Shown: piece by piece, positions 9,744 to 31,630 of the stretch
How the letters are laid out: every line of letters begins with the position of its first letter
Numbering within the stretch: the first letter of the stretch is position 1
From: Candidatus Saccharimonadota bacterium
GTDB taxonomy: Bacteria > Patescibacteriota > Saccharimonadia > Saccharimonadales > Saccharimonadaceae
Direction: 5' to 3'
Length of the DNA: 34,933 nucleotides
Assembly: GCA_017404725.1 (NCBI GenBank)
Contig: JAFRBS010000012.1
Span: forward strand, 1 to 34,933
Program-made: the position numbers and the translations under genes
Notes under the pieces: generated by a model
Database searches by the model: none
Told to the model about the DNA's origin: nothing
Seen by the model: the letters and a program-made list of their open reading frames with translations, nothing else

Positions 9744-11060
9744 ATGAATATCTTGGCAATCGAAAGTTCTTGCGACGAAACCGCGGCGGCGATTCTTTCT
9801 GGTGATCCGAAAAACCCCAAAGCCGTACCCGAGCTTCTTTCCAACGTCGTCGTTTCCCAAATTGACATCTTTAAAGCCTACGGCGGGGTTATCCCCGAAA
9901 TCGCGGCCCGAAATCACCTCGATGCGATTTTGCCGGTCATAAAAAAGGCTTTTAAAGACGCTAATTTTCTAACCGCCGACAAAACCGAGAACTGGGACAA
10001 AATCGACGCTATCGCCGTTACTCATACTCCCGGCCTGCTCGGCTCCCTGCTCGTCGGCACTTTGACCGCTCGCACGCTCGCGATCCTGCACGATAAACCT
10101 CTCTACGCCGTTCATCATCTAAAATCCCATATCTACGCCAACTGGCTCGAAAATAATAACCCTCCAGAATTTCCGCTGCTCGCTCTAGTGATCTCCGGCG
10201 GCCATACTCAGATTATTTACATGAAAGAGCATAATCATTTCGAAATCATCGGAACGACCAGAGACGACGCTGTCGGCGAATGTTTCGATAAGGTCGCAAA
10301 AATTCTCGGCCTTCCCTACCCTGGCGGCCCAGCTATCACAAAAGCCGCTGACGGTAAAATCGAAAACGCCGACGGCACCAATTTTGTAAAAGTCCGCCCC
10401 GGCGACCCCGAAAAATACAAGTTCCCACACCCGAAACTTACTTCCGCCCCACGAAATCCTAGCCCAGCTTCCGCATCGCACGACCCAAAAATGCCGAACA
10501 ACCCGTCTTATGACTTCAGCTTCTCCGGTCTAAAAACCGCAGTTCTCCGGACCGCCCAAGAAATCGCCGGTGTCCCAATTTCTACGCCTAGTTATGAGCT
10601 GAAAAATCTCCTAACCCCTGAACAAAAGGCCGATTTTGCTGCTAGCTTCGAAAAAACCGCCGTAGACATTTTGCTCGAGAAACTAAACCTCGCCCGCGAA
10701 AACTACCCCGACGTGAAATCCATCGTCATCGCCGGCGGCGTCTCCGCGAATACTAGGTTAAGGGAGAAGACTGGACAGCTATTTTCTAGAGTTTACTTAC
10801 CTTCAAATTCCGCCACGTATATTCCTGACGGCGCCGAGAAAGCCGCCCGAAGGGCGGACTTTCCCGGACGCCCAGCGTATGACGTGCCGGAATTTGATGG
10901 AACTCTAGAAAATAGCTGTCCAGCCTTCTTCCCAGAACCCCGTTTTTCCGGCGATAACGCCGCCATGGTCGGCGCCGCCGCTTTCTACGAAATCATGAGC
11001 GGCGTAAAACCGACCGACCCATATTCCCTAGACATCATGCCTCGCTCTGAGATCTACTAA
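9744..11060 (+). CDS. tsaD: tRNA threonylcarbamoyladenosine transferase TsaD
   Basis: TsaD transfers the threonylcarbamoyl group to A37 of ANN-reading tRNAs with TsaB/TsaE partners. Visible are MNILAIESSCDETAAAI, the metal-binding HHLKSHIYA, VISGGHTQI, GTTRDDAVGECFDK, FSFSGLKTAV, AGGVSANTRLRE and the closing FSGDNAAMVGAAA. At 438 residues it is about 100 longer than usual. One extra stretch (about residues 230-252, Pro/Ser-rich) precedes the FSFSGLK motif. A second, about 45 residues between the GGVSANTRLRE and SGDNAAM motifs, coincides with a perfect 23-bp inverted repeat. The ATG at 9744 was chosen over an upstream TTG at 9726 because TATAAT (9732-9737) ends six bases before it: a leaderless start. 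Confidence 0.93.
   Translation: MNILAIESSCDETAAAILSGDPKNPKAVPELLSNVVVSQIDIFKAYGGVIPEIAARNHLDAILPVIKKAFKDANFLTADKTENWDKIDAIAVTHTPGLLGSLLVGTLTARTLAILHDKPLYAVHHLKSHIYANWLENNNPPEFPLLALVISGGHTQIIYMKEHNHFEIIGTTRDDAVGECFDKVAKILGLPYPGGPAITKAADGKIENADGTNFVKVRPGDPEKYKFPHPKLTSAPRNPSPASASHDPKMPNNPSYDFSFSGLKTAVLRTAQEIAGVPISTPSYELKNLLTPEQKADFAASFEKTAVDILLEKLNLARENYPDVKSIVIAGGVSANTRLREKTGQLFSRVYLPSNSATYIPDGAEKAARRADFPGRPAYDVPEFDGTLENSCPAFFPEPRFSGDNAAMVGAAAFYEIMSGVKPTDPYSLDIMPRSEIY
10771..10923. repeat. Palindromic element inside tsaD
   Basis: The arms at 10771-10793 and 10901-10923 are perfect 23-bp inverted repeats; after one mismatch, a few further outer bases also pair. A smaller hairpin (CCGCCC-GAA-GGGCGG, 10843-10857) lies inside. 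The 153 bp stay in frame and code for residues about 342-393, which have no counterpart in ordinary TsaD. It behaves like the protein-coding palindromic elements known from Rickettsia (RPE), although no sequence relation is claimed. Confidence 0.65.
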
Positions 11061-14209: not shown

Positions 14210-16960
14210 CTAAATCGCCTCGCGCTCCAGTTTCAGCCGCTCTATCAGCGCCTCTTTTTCAGCAATCGCACGCCGCGTCTCCTCGACCAACTCCGCCGGC
14301 GCCTTATCTACGTAACGCGGATTCATCATCCTCGCGTTAAGCCCATCAAGCTCGCGTCCAACCGCCAAAATCCGTTCTTCCAAAGACGAGGCATATTCCG
14401 CAACCACCTCAGAAGGTACATCAAGATAAACCTCGCGACCAGAAAGCGCCAACCGAATCCCTCGCGGCTGCCCCTCACAAGACATTACCGACGGAGCCTT
14501 CGTCAAAGACTGAATCAAAAGTTGATTATCGTCCACCAGGGAATCATCGCCAAACAAAACCGGCCACCTTTTTCCGCCCGGGATCGCCACATAAGTCCGC
14601 CGAATCTCCGAAACCACTGTAGTCAGCCCATCGAATTCCGCCGCCGAAATCGGATCGTATTTCAGCCGAGCAGGCCAAGCAGCCTCAATAATCATACCGG
14701 AAGTAAAGCTCAAATTCTGCCAAATCGCCTCTGTTACAAACGGCGCAAACGGATGAAGCATGACTAAGATATCCATCAAAGTCTTTTTAAGCAGCGGCAC
14801 ATTTTTATAAATCTTCTGGCTCTCAATAAACCAGTCCGCATACTTATCCCAAATCAGCGAGTGTAGCGTCTCGACCGCCTCAGCAAACCGATACGTCTTC
14901 ATCTGCTTCTCGACCGCCGACCGAGCAGTATCAATCTCCCGACAGATCCAGTCCTCGCCCATGTTCAAAGTCCGTACCTTATCATCCCCCTCATACTCAT
15001 CAACCATGCTCTGAACTAGTCTTGACAAATTCCACAGTTTATTACATAAATTACGTCCAGAAACTACCGAATTCTCGGAAAATGCCTGGTTCATACCCGC
15101 CGAGCGACCTCTTAAAATCCCCATCCTAAACGCATCAGAACCATACTTGGAAACCAGCTCAACCGGGTTCAAAACATTGCCCTTAGATTTCGACATCTTC
15201 TGGCCGTGCGCATCCAGAACCAGCCCATGCAAATAAACCTCGCGGAAGGGAACTGAACCCGTCACATAAAGCCCCATCATAATCATCCGCGCCACCCAGG
15301 CAAACAGAATATCCGCGCCCGTTTCCATCACGTTCAACGGATAGTACGGGTTAGACAAACCCTCCTCCCAGTCCGTACAGACAATCGGCCAGTGCGAAGA
15401 CGAGAACCACGTATCAAAGGTATCCTCATCACGAACATACTTCGCCCCGCCGTACTCAATCTCGGAAAGCTCCGTCCGCGTGTCGAAAATCCACTCCGGC
15501 AACTCATCTTGGGAAGCTTCAGCAGGGATGCTATTCGAGGAAGAAGGAGCATCGGAGCGAGCGGTACTTTTCGTACCGTGAGCGAGAAGCGCATCTTCTG
15601 ACGAAGAAGAGCGCCCTGATGTAGCTTTCCGGAACATTGGGATAGCAATCCCCCACGGTATCTGCCTTGAAATATTCCAGTCTTTAAGTCCCTTAAGATA
15701 ATTCAACAAAACCTTCTTCTTCGAAGCAGGGAAGAACTTAATCTCGCCCGCCGACACCGCCGAAATCGCCGCCGCCGCCAACTTCTCCACATCAATGAAC
15801 CATTGCTCTTTTAGCGTCGGCTCAATCACCGTGCCACACTTATAACAATGCGCCACTGCGTGAGTAATCTTGTGTTCACCACGAAGCAACCCGGCCTCCT
15901 CAAGATCATGCAGAACCTTCTTCCGGCACTCAGCCGTCGAAAGCCCATCATATTCTGGCCCACAGCCCGTCATCATCCCCGCATCATCAATTACTCGAAT
16001 CCGATCAAGCCCATGTCGCTCACCAACCTCAAAATCGTCGTAATCATGCGCCGGCGTAATCTTCACCGCACCTGTTCCATACTCAGGATCCGCATGCTCA
16101 TCAAACACGATCGGAATCTGCCGCCCGGTCAGCGGTAGCTCTACTAAGGCCCCCTCAAGGCCGGCATACCGCGAATCTGAAGGATTAACCGCCACCGCCA
16201 CATCCCCAAACAATGTTTCGGGCCGAGTTGTAGACACGATTATTTCCGAAACAACGGGTGACGCGGCTGGGGGGACCCCCGCGGATCCGCCTAACGCGGA
16301 CTCCGTGGGGGAACCTGCCGCGGCAGAACCCGTTGTTTCAGAAACAATCGTGTACGCAATATCCCAAAGCTTACCTTTTTCATCGACATGCTCAACCTCA
16401 ATATCCGCAAACGCCGTCTGGTGCTTCGGACAATAATTCACCAGCTTCTCACCCCTGTAAATCATCCCGTCGTTCCACATCTTCTCAAAGGTCTTGTAGA
16501 CCCGACGAACAACTTTCTCATCCAGCGTAAAAGTCTCAGAAGCCCAATCACAGGATGCGCCAAGCTGTCGCACCTGAAACTCCATGTTGCTCTTCTGCTG
16601 ATGTACAAAATCCCAAACCTGCGCATAAAGCTCCTCGCGCGAGAAGTCAAATCGCGAGCGACCCTGCGCTTCCAAAACCCGCTCATAAACCACCCAAGTC
16701 TCGAACCCAGCGTGATCCGCCCCTGGAATATACCAAGTCGACTCACCACGCAGCCGGTGATACCGAGCCAGAGAATCCTCAAGCGCTACCGTCAAACCGT
16801 GTCCAATATGCAAATTCCCATTCGCATTTGGCGGCGGCATCACGATCGAATAAGCCTTCTCAGCCTCTAACGAAGCCGGCGAAAACACCCCAGAAGCCTC
16901 CCACGCCGCATAAATCTCTGCCTCAAACTTGTCCGGTTCATACGCACTCGAAAATTTCAT
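14210..16960 (-). CDS. valS: Valyl-tRNA synthetase with in-frame insertions
   Basis: ValRS charges tRNA-Val and edits threonine. The 916 residues show PPPNANGNLHIGHG (HIGH site), IPGADHAGFETW, the editing-domain STTRPETLFGDVAVAVNP, DWNISRQIPWG, DTFDTWFSS, GQKMSKSKGNVLNP (KMSKS site) and a C-terminal coiled coil. Two segments do not belong to the family. Residues about 202-242 (low-complexity TTGSAAAGSP to PAASPVVS) and about 443-483 (ATSGRSSSSEDALLAHG onward) each coincide with a 119-120 bp palindromic DNA element. The reading frame is preserved through both. The start has GGAG seven bases upstream and TATAAT at 16985-16990 on minus. It is divergent from the gene at 17.1 kb. Confidence 0.95.
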   Translation of the reverse strand: MKFSSAYEPDKFEAEIYAAWEASGVFSPASLEAEKAYSIVMPPPNANGNLHIGHGLTVALEDSLARYHRLRGESTWYIPGADHAGFETWVVYERVLEAQGRSRFDFSREELYAQVWDFVHQQKSNMEFQVRQLGASCDWASETFTLDEKVVRRVYKTFEKMWNDGMIYRGEKLVNYCPKHQTAFADIEVEHVDEKGKLWDIAYTIVSETTGSAAAGSPTESALGGSAGVPPAASPVVSEIIVSTTRPETLFGDVAVAVNPSDSRYAGLEGALVELPLTGRQIPIVFDEHADPEYGTGAVKITPAHDYDDFEVGERHGLDRIRVIDDAGMMTGCGPEYDGLSTAECRKKVLHDLEEAGLLRGEHKITHAVAHCYKCGTVIEPTLKEQWFIDVEKLAAAAISAVSAGEIKFFPASKKKVLLNYLKGLKDWNISRQIPWGIAIPMFRKATSGRSSSSEDALLAHGTKSTARSDAPSSSNSIPAEASQDELPEWIFDTRTELSEIEYGGAKYVRDEDTFDTWFSSSHWPIVCTDWEEGLSNPYYPLNVMETGADILFAWVARMIMMGLYVTGSVPFREVYLHGLVLDAHGQKMSKSKGNVLNPVELVSKYGSDAFRMGILRGRSAGMNQAFSENSVVSGRNLCNKLWNLSRLVQSMVDEYEGDDKVRTLNMGEDWICREIDTARSAVEKQMKTYRFAEAVETLHSLIWDKYADWFIESQKIYKNVPLLKKTLMDILVMLHPFAPFVTEAIWQNLSFTSGMIIEAAWPARLKYDPISAAEFDGLTTVVSEIRRTYVAIPGGKRWPVLFGDDSLVDDNQLLIQSLTKAPSVMSCEGQPRGIRLALSGREVYLDVPSEVVAEYASSLEERILAVGRELDGLNARMMNPRYVDKAPAELVEETRRAIAEKEALIERLKLEREAI
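15512..15630. repeat. Palindromic element C inside valS
   Basis: A 119-bp imperfect palindrome is centred on the hairpin GCGGTAC-TTTTC-GTACCGT (15561-15579). The outer ends GGAAGCT and AGCTTTCC pair, and several blocks between (CAGGG/CCCTG, GAGCGAG/CTCGC-type) also pair with gaps. It codes in frame for a Ser/Ala-rich stretch between the PMFRK and PEWIFDTR parts of ValRS, where the family has no such insert. Confidence 0.55.
16234..16353. repeat. Palindromic element A inside valS
   Basis: The outer 26-bp arms (16234-16259 and 16328-16353) match in 24 positions, starting ACACGATT and ending AACAACGGGT. The core contains the stem CCCCCGCGGA / TCCGTGGGGG. The 68-bp core has the same length as, and is clearly homologous to, element B at 31191-31278. 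It is translated in frame as a Gly/Ala/Ser/Pro-rich insert just before the STTRPETLF motif of the editing domain. Confidence 0.75.
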
Positions 16961-31169: not shown

Positions 31170-31190
31170 ACTCCTATTATATCATGCGAT

Positions 31191-31278
31191 AAAAGCGGGT
31201 GACGCGACTTGGGGGACCCCCACGGGTTTGCCAAACGCAAATCCCGTGGGGGAACATGTCGCGGCAGGACCCGCTTTT
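31191..31278. repeat. Palindromic element B between murE-like and groES genes
   Basis: AAAAGCGGGT (31191-31200) and ACCCGCTTTT (31269-31278) are the ends. The 68-bp core contains CCCCCACGGG / CCCGTGGGGG and a central GTTTGC / GCAAAT-type stem. It aligns without gaps to element A in valS, and several differences are paired changes that keep the stem (TTGC/GCAA here, CCGC/GCGG there). The right end abuts the first heat-shock operator half-site. Confidence 0.75.
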
Positions 31279-31317
31279 AGCACTCTTGTTTACCCCTTGG
31301 GACGTTCCAAGAGTGCG

Positions 31318-31344
31318 TTAGCACTCTTGACATACGAGTGCTAG
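31318..31344. promoter_or_regulatory. CIRCE operator at groES-groEL
   Basis: TTAGCACTC, nine bases, GAGTGCTAG: one mismatch to the HrcA consensus. The spacer contains the -35 box. A related, wider-spaced repeat (GCACTCTTG and CAAGAGTGC, 31281-31316) lies just upstream. Confidence 0.9.
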
Positions 31345-31355
31345 TTATATATAAT
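31327..31355 (+). promoter_or_regulatory. groES-groEL promoter
   Basis: TTGACA (31327-31332), 17 bp, TATAAT (31350-31355), both consensus. AAAGGAG follows before the ATG. Confidence 0.85.
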
Positions 31356-31375
31356 AGGGATAAAAGGAGATAATT

Positions 31376-31630
31376 ATGGCAATAAAACCTCTAAAAGACC
31401 GCGTCGTCGCGGTAAAAGAAGAACCAAAACTAAAAACCGCCTCTGGCATTTTACTCGGCGAGGCCAAAGAAACCCCAGCCTACGCCGTCGTTGAAAGCGT
31501 CGGCGAAGAGGTAAAATCCGTCAAAAAAGGCGACAAGATCCTCTATAAAGAATATTCGACCACCAACATCAAGATTGACAACAAAGATTATATTATTGTC
31601 GAAGAAAAAGATATCTTAGCAACAGTTTAA
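31376..31630 (+). CDS. groES: Co-chaperonin GroES
   Basis: GroES caps the GroEL chamber as a heptamer. At 84 residues it is about ten shorter than usual. IKPLKDRVVAVKEE and the mobile loop TASGILLGEAKETPAYA with the hydrophobic ILL contact are present, as is KKGDKILYKEYSTT. The missing residues fall between VVESVGEEV and the KKGD motif, where other GroES proteins form the roof hairpin, so the dome top is probably open or reduced. It is followed by groEL after 18 bases containing AAAGGAG. Confidence 0.95.
   Translation: MAIKPLKDRVVAVKEEPKLKTASGILLGEAKETPAYAVVESVGEEVKSVKKGDKILYKEYSTTNIKIDNKDYIIVEEKDILATV

Follow-up and report, generated by a model that had tools for sequence, protein, structure and literature searches.

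A palindromic element in valS and before groES of a Saccharibacteria genome, probably of a new RPE/REP-like family

The best-known examples of palindromes read in frame within protein genes come from Rickettsia and Wolbachia, and some other bacteria have intragenic repetitive extragenic palindromes (REPs); the way in which such palindromes move has been an open question for 25 years. The Rickettsia palindromic elements (RPEs) and Wolbachia palindromic elements are about 100 bp long, lie in frame and solvent-exposed in protein genes, form several families and have no known transposase (PMC10969869; PMC3767692). The DNA considered here (the window) is the 34,933-nucleotide contig JAFRBS010000012.1, or C1, of a Candidatus Saccharimonadota genome (GCA_017404725.1; 738,871 bases, 32 contigs, 97.9% complete). 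One palindrome of this window is translated within valS, the gene for the valyl-tRNA synthetase ValRS, and a homologous one lies in front of groES. They are best read as members of a palindromic element family new to Saccharibacteria and of the RPE/REP-like kind, here called family A. The first-pass annotation knew of no such family in this lineage, and none was found in the open-access literature that could be searched.

Family A resembles the RPEs as a dispersed palindrome in the size range of about 100-150 bp that occurs in frame in unrelated protein genes, at loops that are reused by different families. It differs from them in lineage and sequence; its ends are GGGTGRCG...CGRCAGGACCC, and they carry a purine mismatch that covaries. 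In family A both inverted arms specific to each site and the lack of a direct duplication were measured, and no such report on RPEs was found in the accessible literature. The GTGAC of family A resembles the ATGAC of RPE-4, RPE-6 and RPE-7, which may serve as a lead only. The likeness to RPEs that the first-pass annotation had proposed holds as an analogy (reading in frame, a place in essential-protein loops, several families within a genome): family A would work as RPEs do, and no common descent is implied.

REPs tagged GTAG or CGTC are also short palindromes that extend across many phyla and at times lie in translation and DNA-repair genes. The CGTC REPs, among which RPE-4 and RPE-6 are counted, likewise have no transposase dedicated to them; their stems of 8-9 bp open with A-T pairs, and they have loops of 4-5 nt and CCA tails (PMC3733652). 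Family A shares with them only the TGACG at one of its ends, the complement of CGTCA, and has a different stem and loop. The GTAG REPs carry a GTAG hairpin tag and are mainly extragenic, whereas family A has other ends and is intragenic in 17 of 18 copies. With miniature inverted-repeat transposable elements (MITEs) it shares a non-autonomous, dispersed, inverted-repeat structure, but it makes no direct duplication and no parent insertion sequence was found in phage, plasmid and viral collections. Family A fails the tested definitions of REPs of the RAYT (REP-associated tyrosine transposase) type, of CGTC REPs and of direct-duplication MITEs. The coding palindromes of Nematomorpha mitochondria and the inverted repeats homogenised by template switching are likewise long and lie within coding genes, and their arms stay complementary, probably through template switching (PMC6649704; PMC8604942). 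These repeats consist wholly of native sequence, whereas family A is a foreign core between native arms. It offers many copies, comparable relatives and a searchable end signature, and its footprint (inverted arms, no direct duplication) separates mechanisms.

Core, fold and copies in the genome

As the first-pass annotation had stated, the cores at 16260-16327 and 31201-31268 align without gaps (54 of 68 positions identical) and differ by the paired exchange of CCGC/GCGG against TTGC/GCAA. The match is far above chance (blastn within the genome, valS against groES copy, E = 1.7e-16). The annotation was also right that one copy is translated and the other intergenic: the first is read in frame within the 916-residue ValRS, the second lies in the divergent spacer 31170-31376. 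Each core is flanked by arms that pair with each other, at 24 of 26 positions in valS (16234-16259 and 16328-16353) and at 10 of 10 before groES (31191-31200 and 31269-31278). As single-stranded DNA, 16234-16353 folds at -49.4 kcal/mol (z = -9.25), which none of 200 shuffles equals. The valS palindrome is the top short inverted repeat among those listed for the window, and ranks among the strongest in the genome (Markov-randomised expectation 0).

The ValRS insert encodes SPTESALGGSAGVPPAASP and lies immediately N-terminal to the conserved STTRPET strand of the editing (CP1) domain. The covariance model R1 matches it at 16254-16332 (E 1.6e-21). In an AlphaFold model of ValRS (with 22 genus-mates), of only fair overall predicted local distance difference test score (pLDDT 67.9), residues 209-235 score below 50; they join two strands where the editing domain begins at its base, as expected for a flexible loop.

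Searching the genome with blastn gave seven clear copies of family A; a covariance model built from these seven and run on the same genome at E < 1 gave 18, antisense self-matches of the best ones apart, where the annotation had seen two. Only the groES copy is not read in frame inside a gene. The tolerance of insertion into an essential gene, noted earlier for valS, was thus understated, and intragenic insertion is the rule in this genome. The hosts include ValRS, IleRS, AlaRS, TypA, LigA, MnmA, GatA, GatB, Obg, TatD, cysteine desulfurase, a PilT/PilB-like ATPase and others, and many of them serve translation (names were assigned from sequence and homologues, mostly without a profile search). 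The element has the same orientation as its host gene in 11 cases and the opposite one in six, and the open frame varies among copies. Cores measure 66-85 nt without the arms, fall into two types and have no coding capacity of their own. An extra module, CCGCCCCTTGGGACGCGGAAGG...ACAGGACCC, takes the place of the right end at loci L013, L016, L022 and L024 and lies on the left at L029. Solo CCGCCCCTTGGGACGCGGAAGG modules, in frame and without the full core, were seen in genome G000 (C11, in LeuRS; C26:22724-22888; C19:12947-13037).

The ends of family A are not simple inverted repeats (GGGT-GRCG against GGGTCCTGYCG). To avoid a bias from alignment, covariation was measured on ungapped sets. The 72-nt set (21 sequences, 26 pairs) has 95.6% of its cells paired, against 76.9% after shuffling (maximum 80.4%), and 15 of the 26 pairs show a compensatory change; the sets of 70, 79 and 67 nt give the same picture. 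The conserved fold proposed from two copies is thereby borne out. However, paired-stem covariation alone is no proof of function, because template switching can create Watson-Crick covariation in hairpins that have none (PMC8794818). The two purines that face each other inside the ends are more telling: among 143 distinct cores they are A.G in 112, G.A in 19 and G.G in one (Fisher p = 9e-18), and among 17 cores from outside Saccharibacteria A.G in nine and G.A in eight, with no other combination. A mismatch that is preserved by swapping cannot result from template copying, and therefore indicates recognition of the folded strand. No Rfam 15 family matches 16150-16450 at E <= 1, and the window as a whole yields tRNAs only. 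An interpretation of the bulge and the G.A mismatch as a k-turn was dropped, as the tandem G.A pair is wrongly placed.

Outer arms and insertion sites

The self-complementary, locus-specific arms described for valS and groES are a general property of the family. In 131 copies the first five positions outside GGGT/ACCC are paired in 95, 92, 90, 86 and 76% of cases, against 80, 45, 56, 33 and 31% when arms of different loci are combined, and from position 6 on the average pairing is near background. The arms of the own genome score 10.1 against 5.9. Beyond the first five nucleotides inverted repeats still score 6.58 against 5.10, and direct repeats 5.24 against the 5.11 expected between loci; 15 of the 131 copies exceed the 99th percentile for pairing in this outer part. 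No direct target-site duplication was found across the 131 copies at any arm length tested. The long arms of the own genome (IleRS, ValRS, L029, TypA, GatA and others) span 12-34 aligned columns, and arms of 12-29 nt occur in ValRS, IleRS, GatA, L293 and L029. Genome G033 contains five cores only 0-4 bases apart, with the arms GGCGGC, GTGAC, GGC, AGCGGC and GTGGC, each of which pairs with its own partner arm.

Comparison with relatives suggests where the arms come from. The left arm in valS complements the native ValRS codons EIIVST..., on the side that is kept in relatives, and the right arm is probably an inverted copy of it. In element orientation the left arm is native in ValRS, IleRS, LigA and GatB, and the right arm in GatA, L293 (compared with L252) and L303 (compared with L280); the opposite arm reads in each case as its inverted copy. 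The polarity of the arms is therefore mixed. These calls were judged by eye, against relatives that are ~65-78% identical.

The genus-mate G034, read whole, has no copy of family A, and its orthologues of LigA, MnmA, AlaRS, GatB, GatA and Obg are cleanly without insert. Copies that relatives carry are in turn missing from G000 and G034; of the 28 such copies that were fetched, 18 lie entirely within an open frame taken as a gene. In GatA, TypA, MnmA and Obg, family A occupies the same site in two genomes. The annotation had considered that all related ValRS proteins might carry an unrelated linker of the same length; instead no linker is constant: in several species the loop is only 2-5 residues long, and other species have unrelated inserts there. 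The loops of IleRS and cysteine desulfurase contain a different insert in nearly every species. The insert-bearing loops are hot spots. In these minimal bacteria, which depend on a host, a given loop of an essential enzyme serves as a landing site again and again, and the length of ValRS within the one genus varies between 857 and 994 residues.

Intergenic sites at L215 (1449-1640 and 940-1130), compared with L314/L315 in genomes 91-95% identical, have identical flanks on both sides but wholly different palindromes in between, as though one palindrome had taken the place of another. A clean empty site was not found in comparing CAMVCW/CAMKRV with CAMVDR: two junctions hold another palindrome, and elsewhere the copy is shared or the flank too diverged.

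Proposed mechanism and rival explanations

It appears rather likely that both palindromes are copies of one dispersed, non-autonomous selfish element, whose folded strand moves or is copied and whose arms arise by fold-back synthesis on one flank. The form that moves or is copied would be a single strand that has folded and whose ends are recognised, as the swapping purine mismatch suggests. On entering a surface loop in frame, the element would be read through by the host gene. Synthesis at the new hairpin could then fold back and copy one native flank in inverted form by template switching, which would yield arms with no fewer than 5 and as many as about 29 paired bases, and purifying selection on the host gene would let in-frame copies persist. 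Fold-back synthesis and template switching are documented for quasipalindromes elsewhere (PMC8604942; PMC6649704). On the best reading, then, family A is a new RPE/REP-like family of palindromes whose mobile form is probably a folded single strand. As for the footprint, we know of no ordinary transposon that leaves a mirror-image copy of its flank.

Several observations weigh against this explanation. The polarity of native and copied arms is mixed, and the stem covariation is explicable by template switching, from which only the purine-purine swap escapes. In TypA the flanks encode conserved residues on both sides, and a pre-existing inverted repeat chosen as target, or later homogenisation, explains these arms more readily than simple copying does. 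In other genomes, some 50% of the copies have a 5-bp arm within partly conserved ACAY...RGAG borders; because of this conservation the arm, at least in its innermost part, may be element sequence instead of host flank. No near-identical pair of genomes with a clean empty and a filled site was found, and for this reason we infer inverted copying from relatives of the identity given above. No mobilising enzyme was identified.

The TypA arms are also what would be expected if the element enters the middle of short inverted repeats that already exist (hairpin tips or cruciforms), so that the arms are the target. The average arm ends sharply at 5 bp, and some REP families elsewhere sit within palindromic targets (PMC3733652). 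However, arms of 12-29 nt exceed what a 0.74-Mb genome would supply by chance, since randomised sequence contains 0 inverted repeats scoring >=17, and the relatives of GatA, L293 and L303 possess just one of the two arms. Target choice is accordingly held to be fairly unlikely. An improbable candidate is a REP, or REP doublet forming a hairpin (REPIN), mobilised by RAYT, a Y1 tyrosine transposase of the HUH class. HUH enzymes recognise single strands that are folded and have, close to their ends, a conserved bulge and mismatch, which suits the fold of family A, and Y1 proteins are encoded in four of eight carrier genomes of other phyla. Yet neither the own genome nor any of ten carrier genus-mates has a Y1_Tnp match, the Y1 loci examined in other phyla have no element ends nearby, and family A lacks a GTAG/GTGG tag followed by a simple hairpin.

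A conventional MITE, with terminal inverted repeats cut and joined in trans by the DDE transposase of an insertion sequence, would also be short and dispersed, with palindromic ends and no coding capacity. It is very improbable here, given the missing direct duplication, ends that are not simple inverted repeats, and the absence of any copy, by core or end-motif search, from phages, plasmids and 2.9 million viral contigs. Just as improbable is a functional RNA or protein-binding hairpin spread for regulation, such as a transcript stabiliser or attenuator. The covarying fold with its A.G/G.A mismatch would be compatible with such a role, and in other Saccharibacteria genomes many intergenic copies end 10-20 bases upstream of a TATAAT-like box; but the element occurs in both orientations to host genes, orthologues generally do not share sites, half of the genus is without it, and Rfam gives no match. 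Integron attC sites, palindromes with bulges, were set aside because the element sites lie within conserved essential genes; no integrase search was made.

Distribution and other palindromes of the window

With the covariance model, family A was found in 17 of 35 genus-mates. In a family sample, 22 of 199 genomes carry it, own genome included. The strict end pattern occurs in 11 of 287 genomes of a phylum-wide sample. In 84,980 species genomes, the end motif with GGGGGNCCCC between matches at least 119 stretches, most of which come from Saccharibacteria and the others from Myxococcota, Deltaproteobacteria, Omnitrophota, Solirubrobacterales, Uhrbacteria, Doudnabacteria, Latescibacterota and a Legionellaceae metagenome-assembled genome (MAG). 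Eight genomes outside the genus have 3-27 copies each, against 0 for a reversed-pattern control. The carriers are mostly MAGs, so that an individual case may reflect a binning error; this is hardly an explanation for 14-27 copies over many contigs. Core similarity is 0.77 within one genome and 0.70 between genomes, and some identical cores lie at different sites, which points to recent, separate amplifications. It is possible, though still doubtful, that family A represents a mobile element class of several phyla, in which the folded strand is recognised by its bulge and covarying G.A mismatch, the target flank is duplicated in inverted form and the carrier has no transposase of a known family.

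Two variants of the core were seen. Genome G027 contains four copies of ~131 nt, of which L047 1501-1631 (131 nt) is an element enlarged by an extra long inner hairpin. In the deltaproteobacterium RIFOXYA12_FULL_61_11, with 27 core copies, a longer conserved repeat with ends CAGTCTTGG...CAAGACTGA encloses the core (L191, L199, L206, L223, L265).

Table 1. Positions of the family A copies and of further palindromic inserts in the window
Feature	Position	Strand	Remarks
valS (ValRS, 916 aa), element host	14210..16960	-	insert at residues ~208-239
valS element core, GGGTGACGCGGC...CTGCCGCGGCAGAACCC	16256..16331	+ (antisense to valS)	encoded as TGSAAAGSPTESALGGSAGVPPAASPV
valS left outer arm	16234..16255	.	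26-nt arm including GGGT = ACACGATTATTTCCGAAACAACGGGT
valS right outer arm	16332..16353	.	ACCCGTTGTTTCAGAAACAATCGTGT with ACCC; locus-specific; 24/26 pairing with left arm
groES-copy core, divergent spacer before groES	31197..31272	+	covariance model E 1.8e-21
groES-copy left outer arm, AAAAGC	31191..31196	.	
groES-copy right outer arm, GCTTTT	31273..31278	.	
Second in-frame valS insert, other repeat family	15509..15622	-	residues ~447-484, SGRSSSSEDALLAHGTKSTARSDAPSSSNSIPAEASQDE; fold z = -4.4
Near-perfect palindrome of 171 bp, in frame in tsaD	10762..10932	+	arms 32 nt at 94%, 19 nt at 89%

The repeat family of the second valS insert (SSSSEDALLAHGTKSTARSDAPSSSNS) fills the first ValRS loop in G021, G024 and G027. 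The tsaD palindrome is unrelated to family A in sequence, and its arms include conserved TsaD codons. A 26-member repeat cluster of the own genome proved to be mostly merged tRNA genes. A repeat of 200-250 bases (L215 7711-7959) has dozens of copies in the CAMVCW and CAMKRV Saccharibacteria genomes. Another palindromic repeat, with the core NAATGAGATTTAG-CCAGATTTGAGCGCG...CGCTCAAGTC, lies in G000 at C9:13790-13951, C19:38945-39089, C19:49734-49835 and C23:16926-17036, outside any gene-size frame checked. It too has site-specific self-complementary arms, of up to ~19 bp, and the arm phenomenon thus extends beyond family A.
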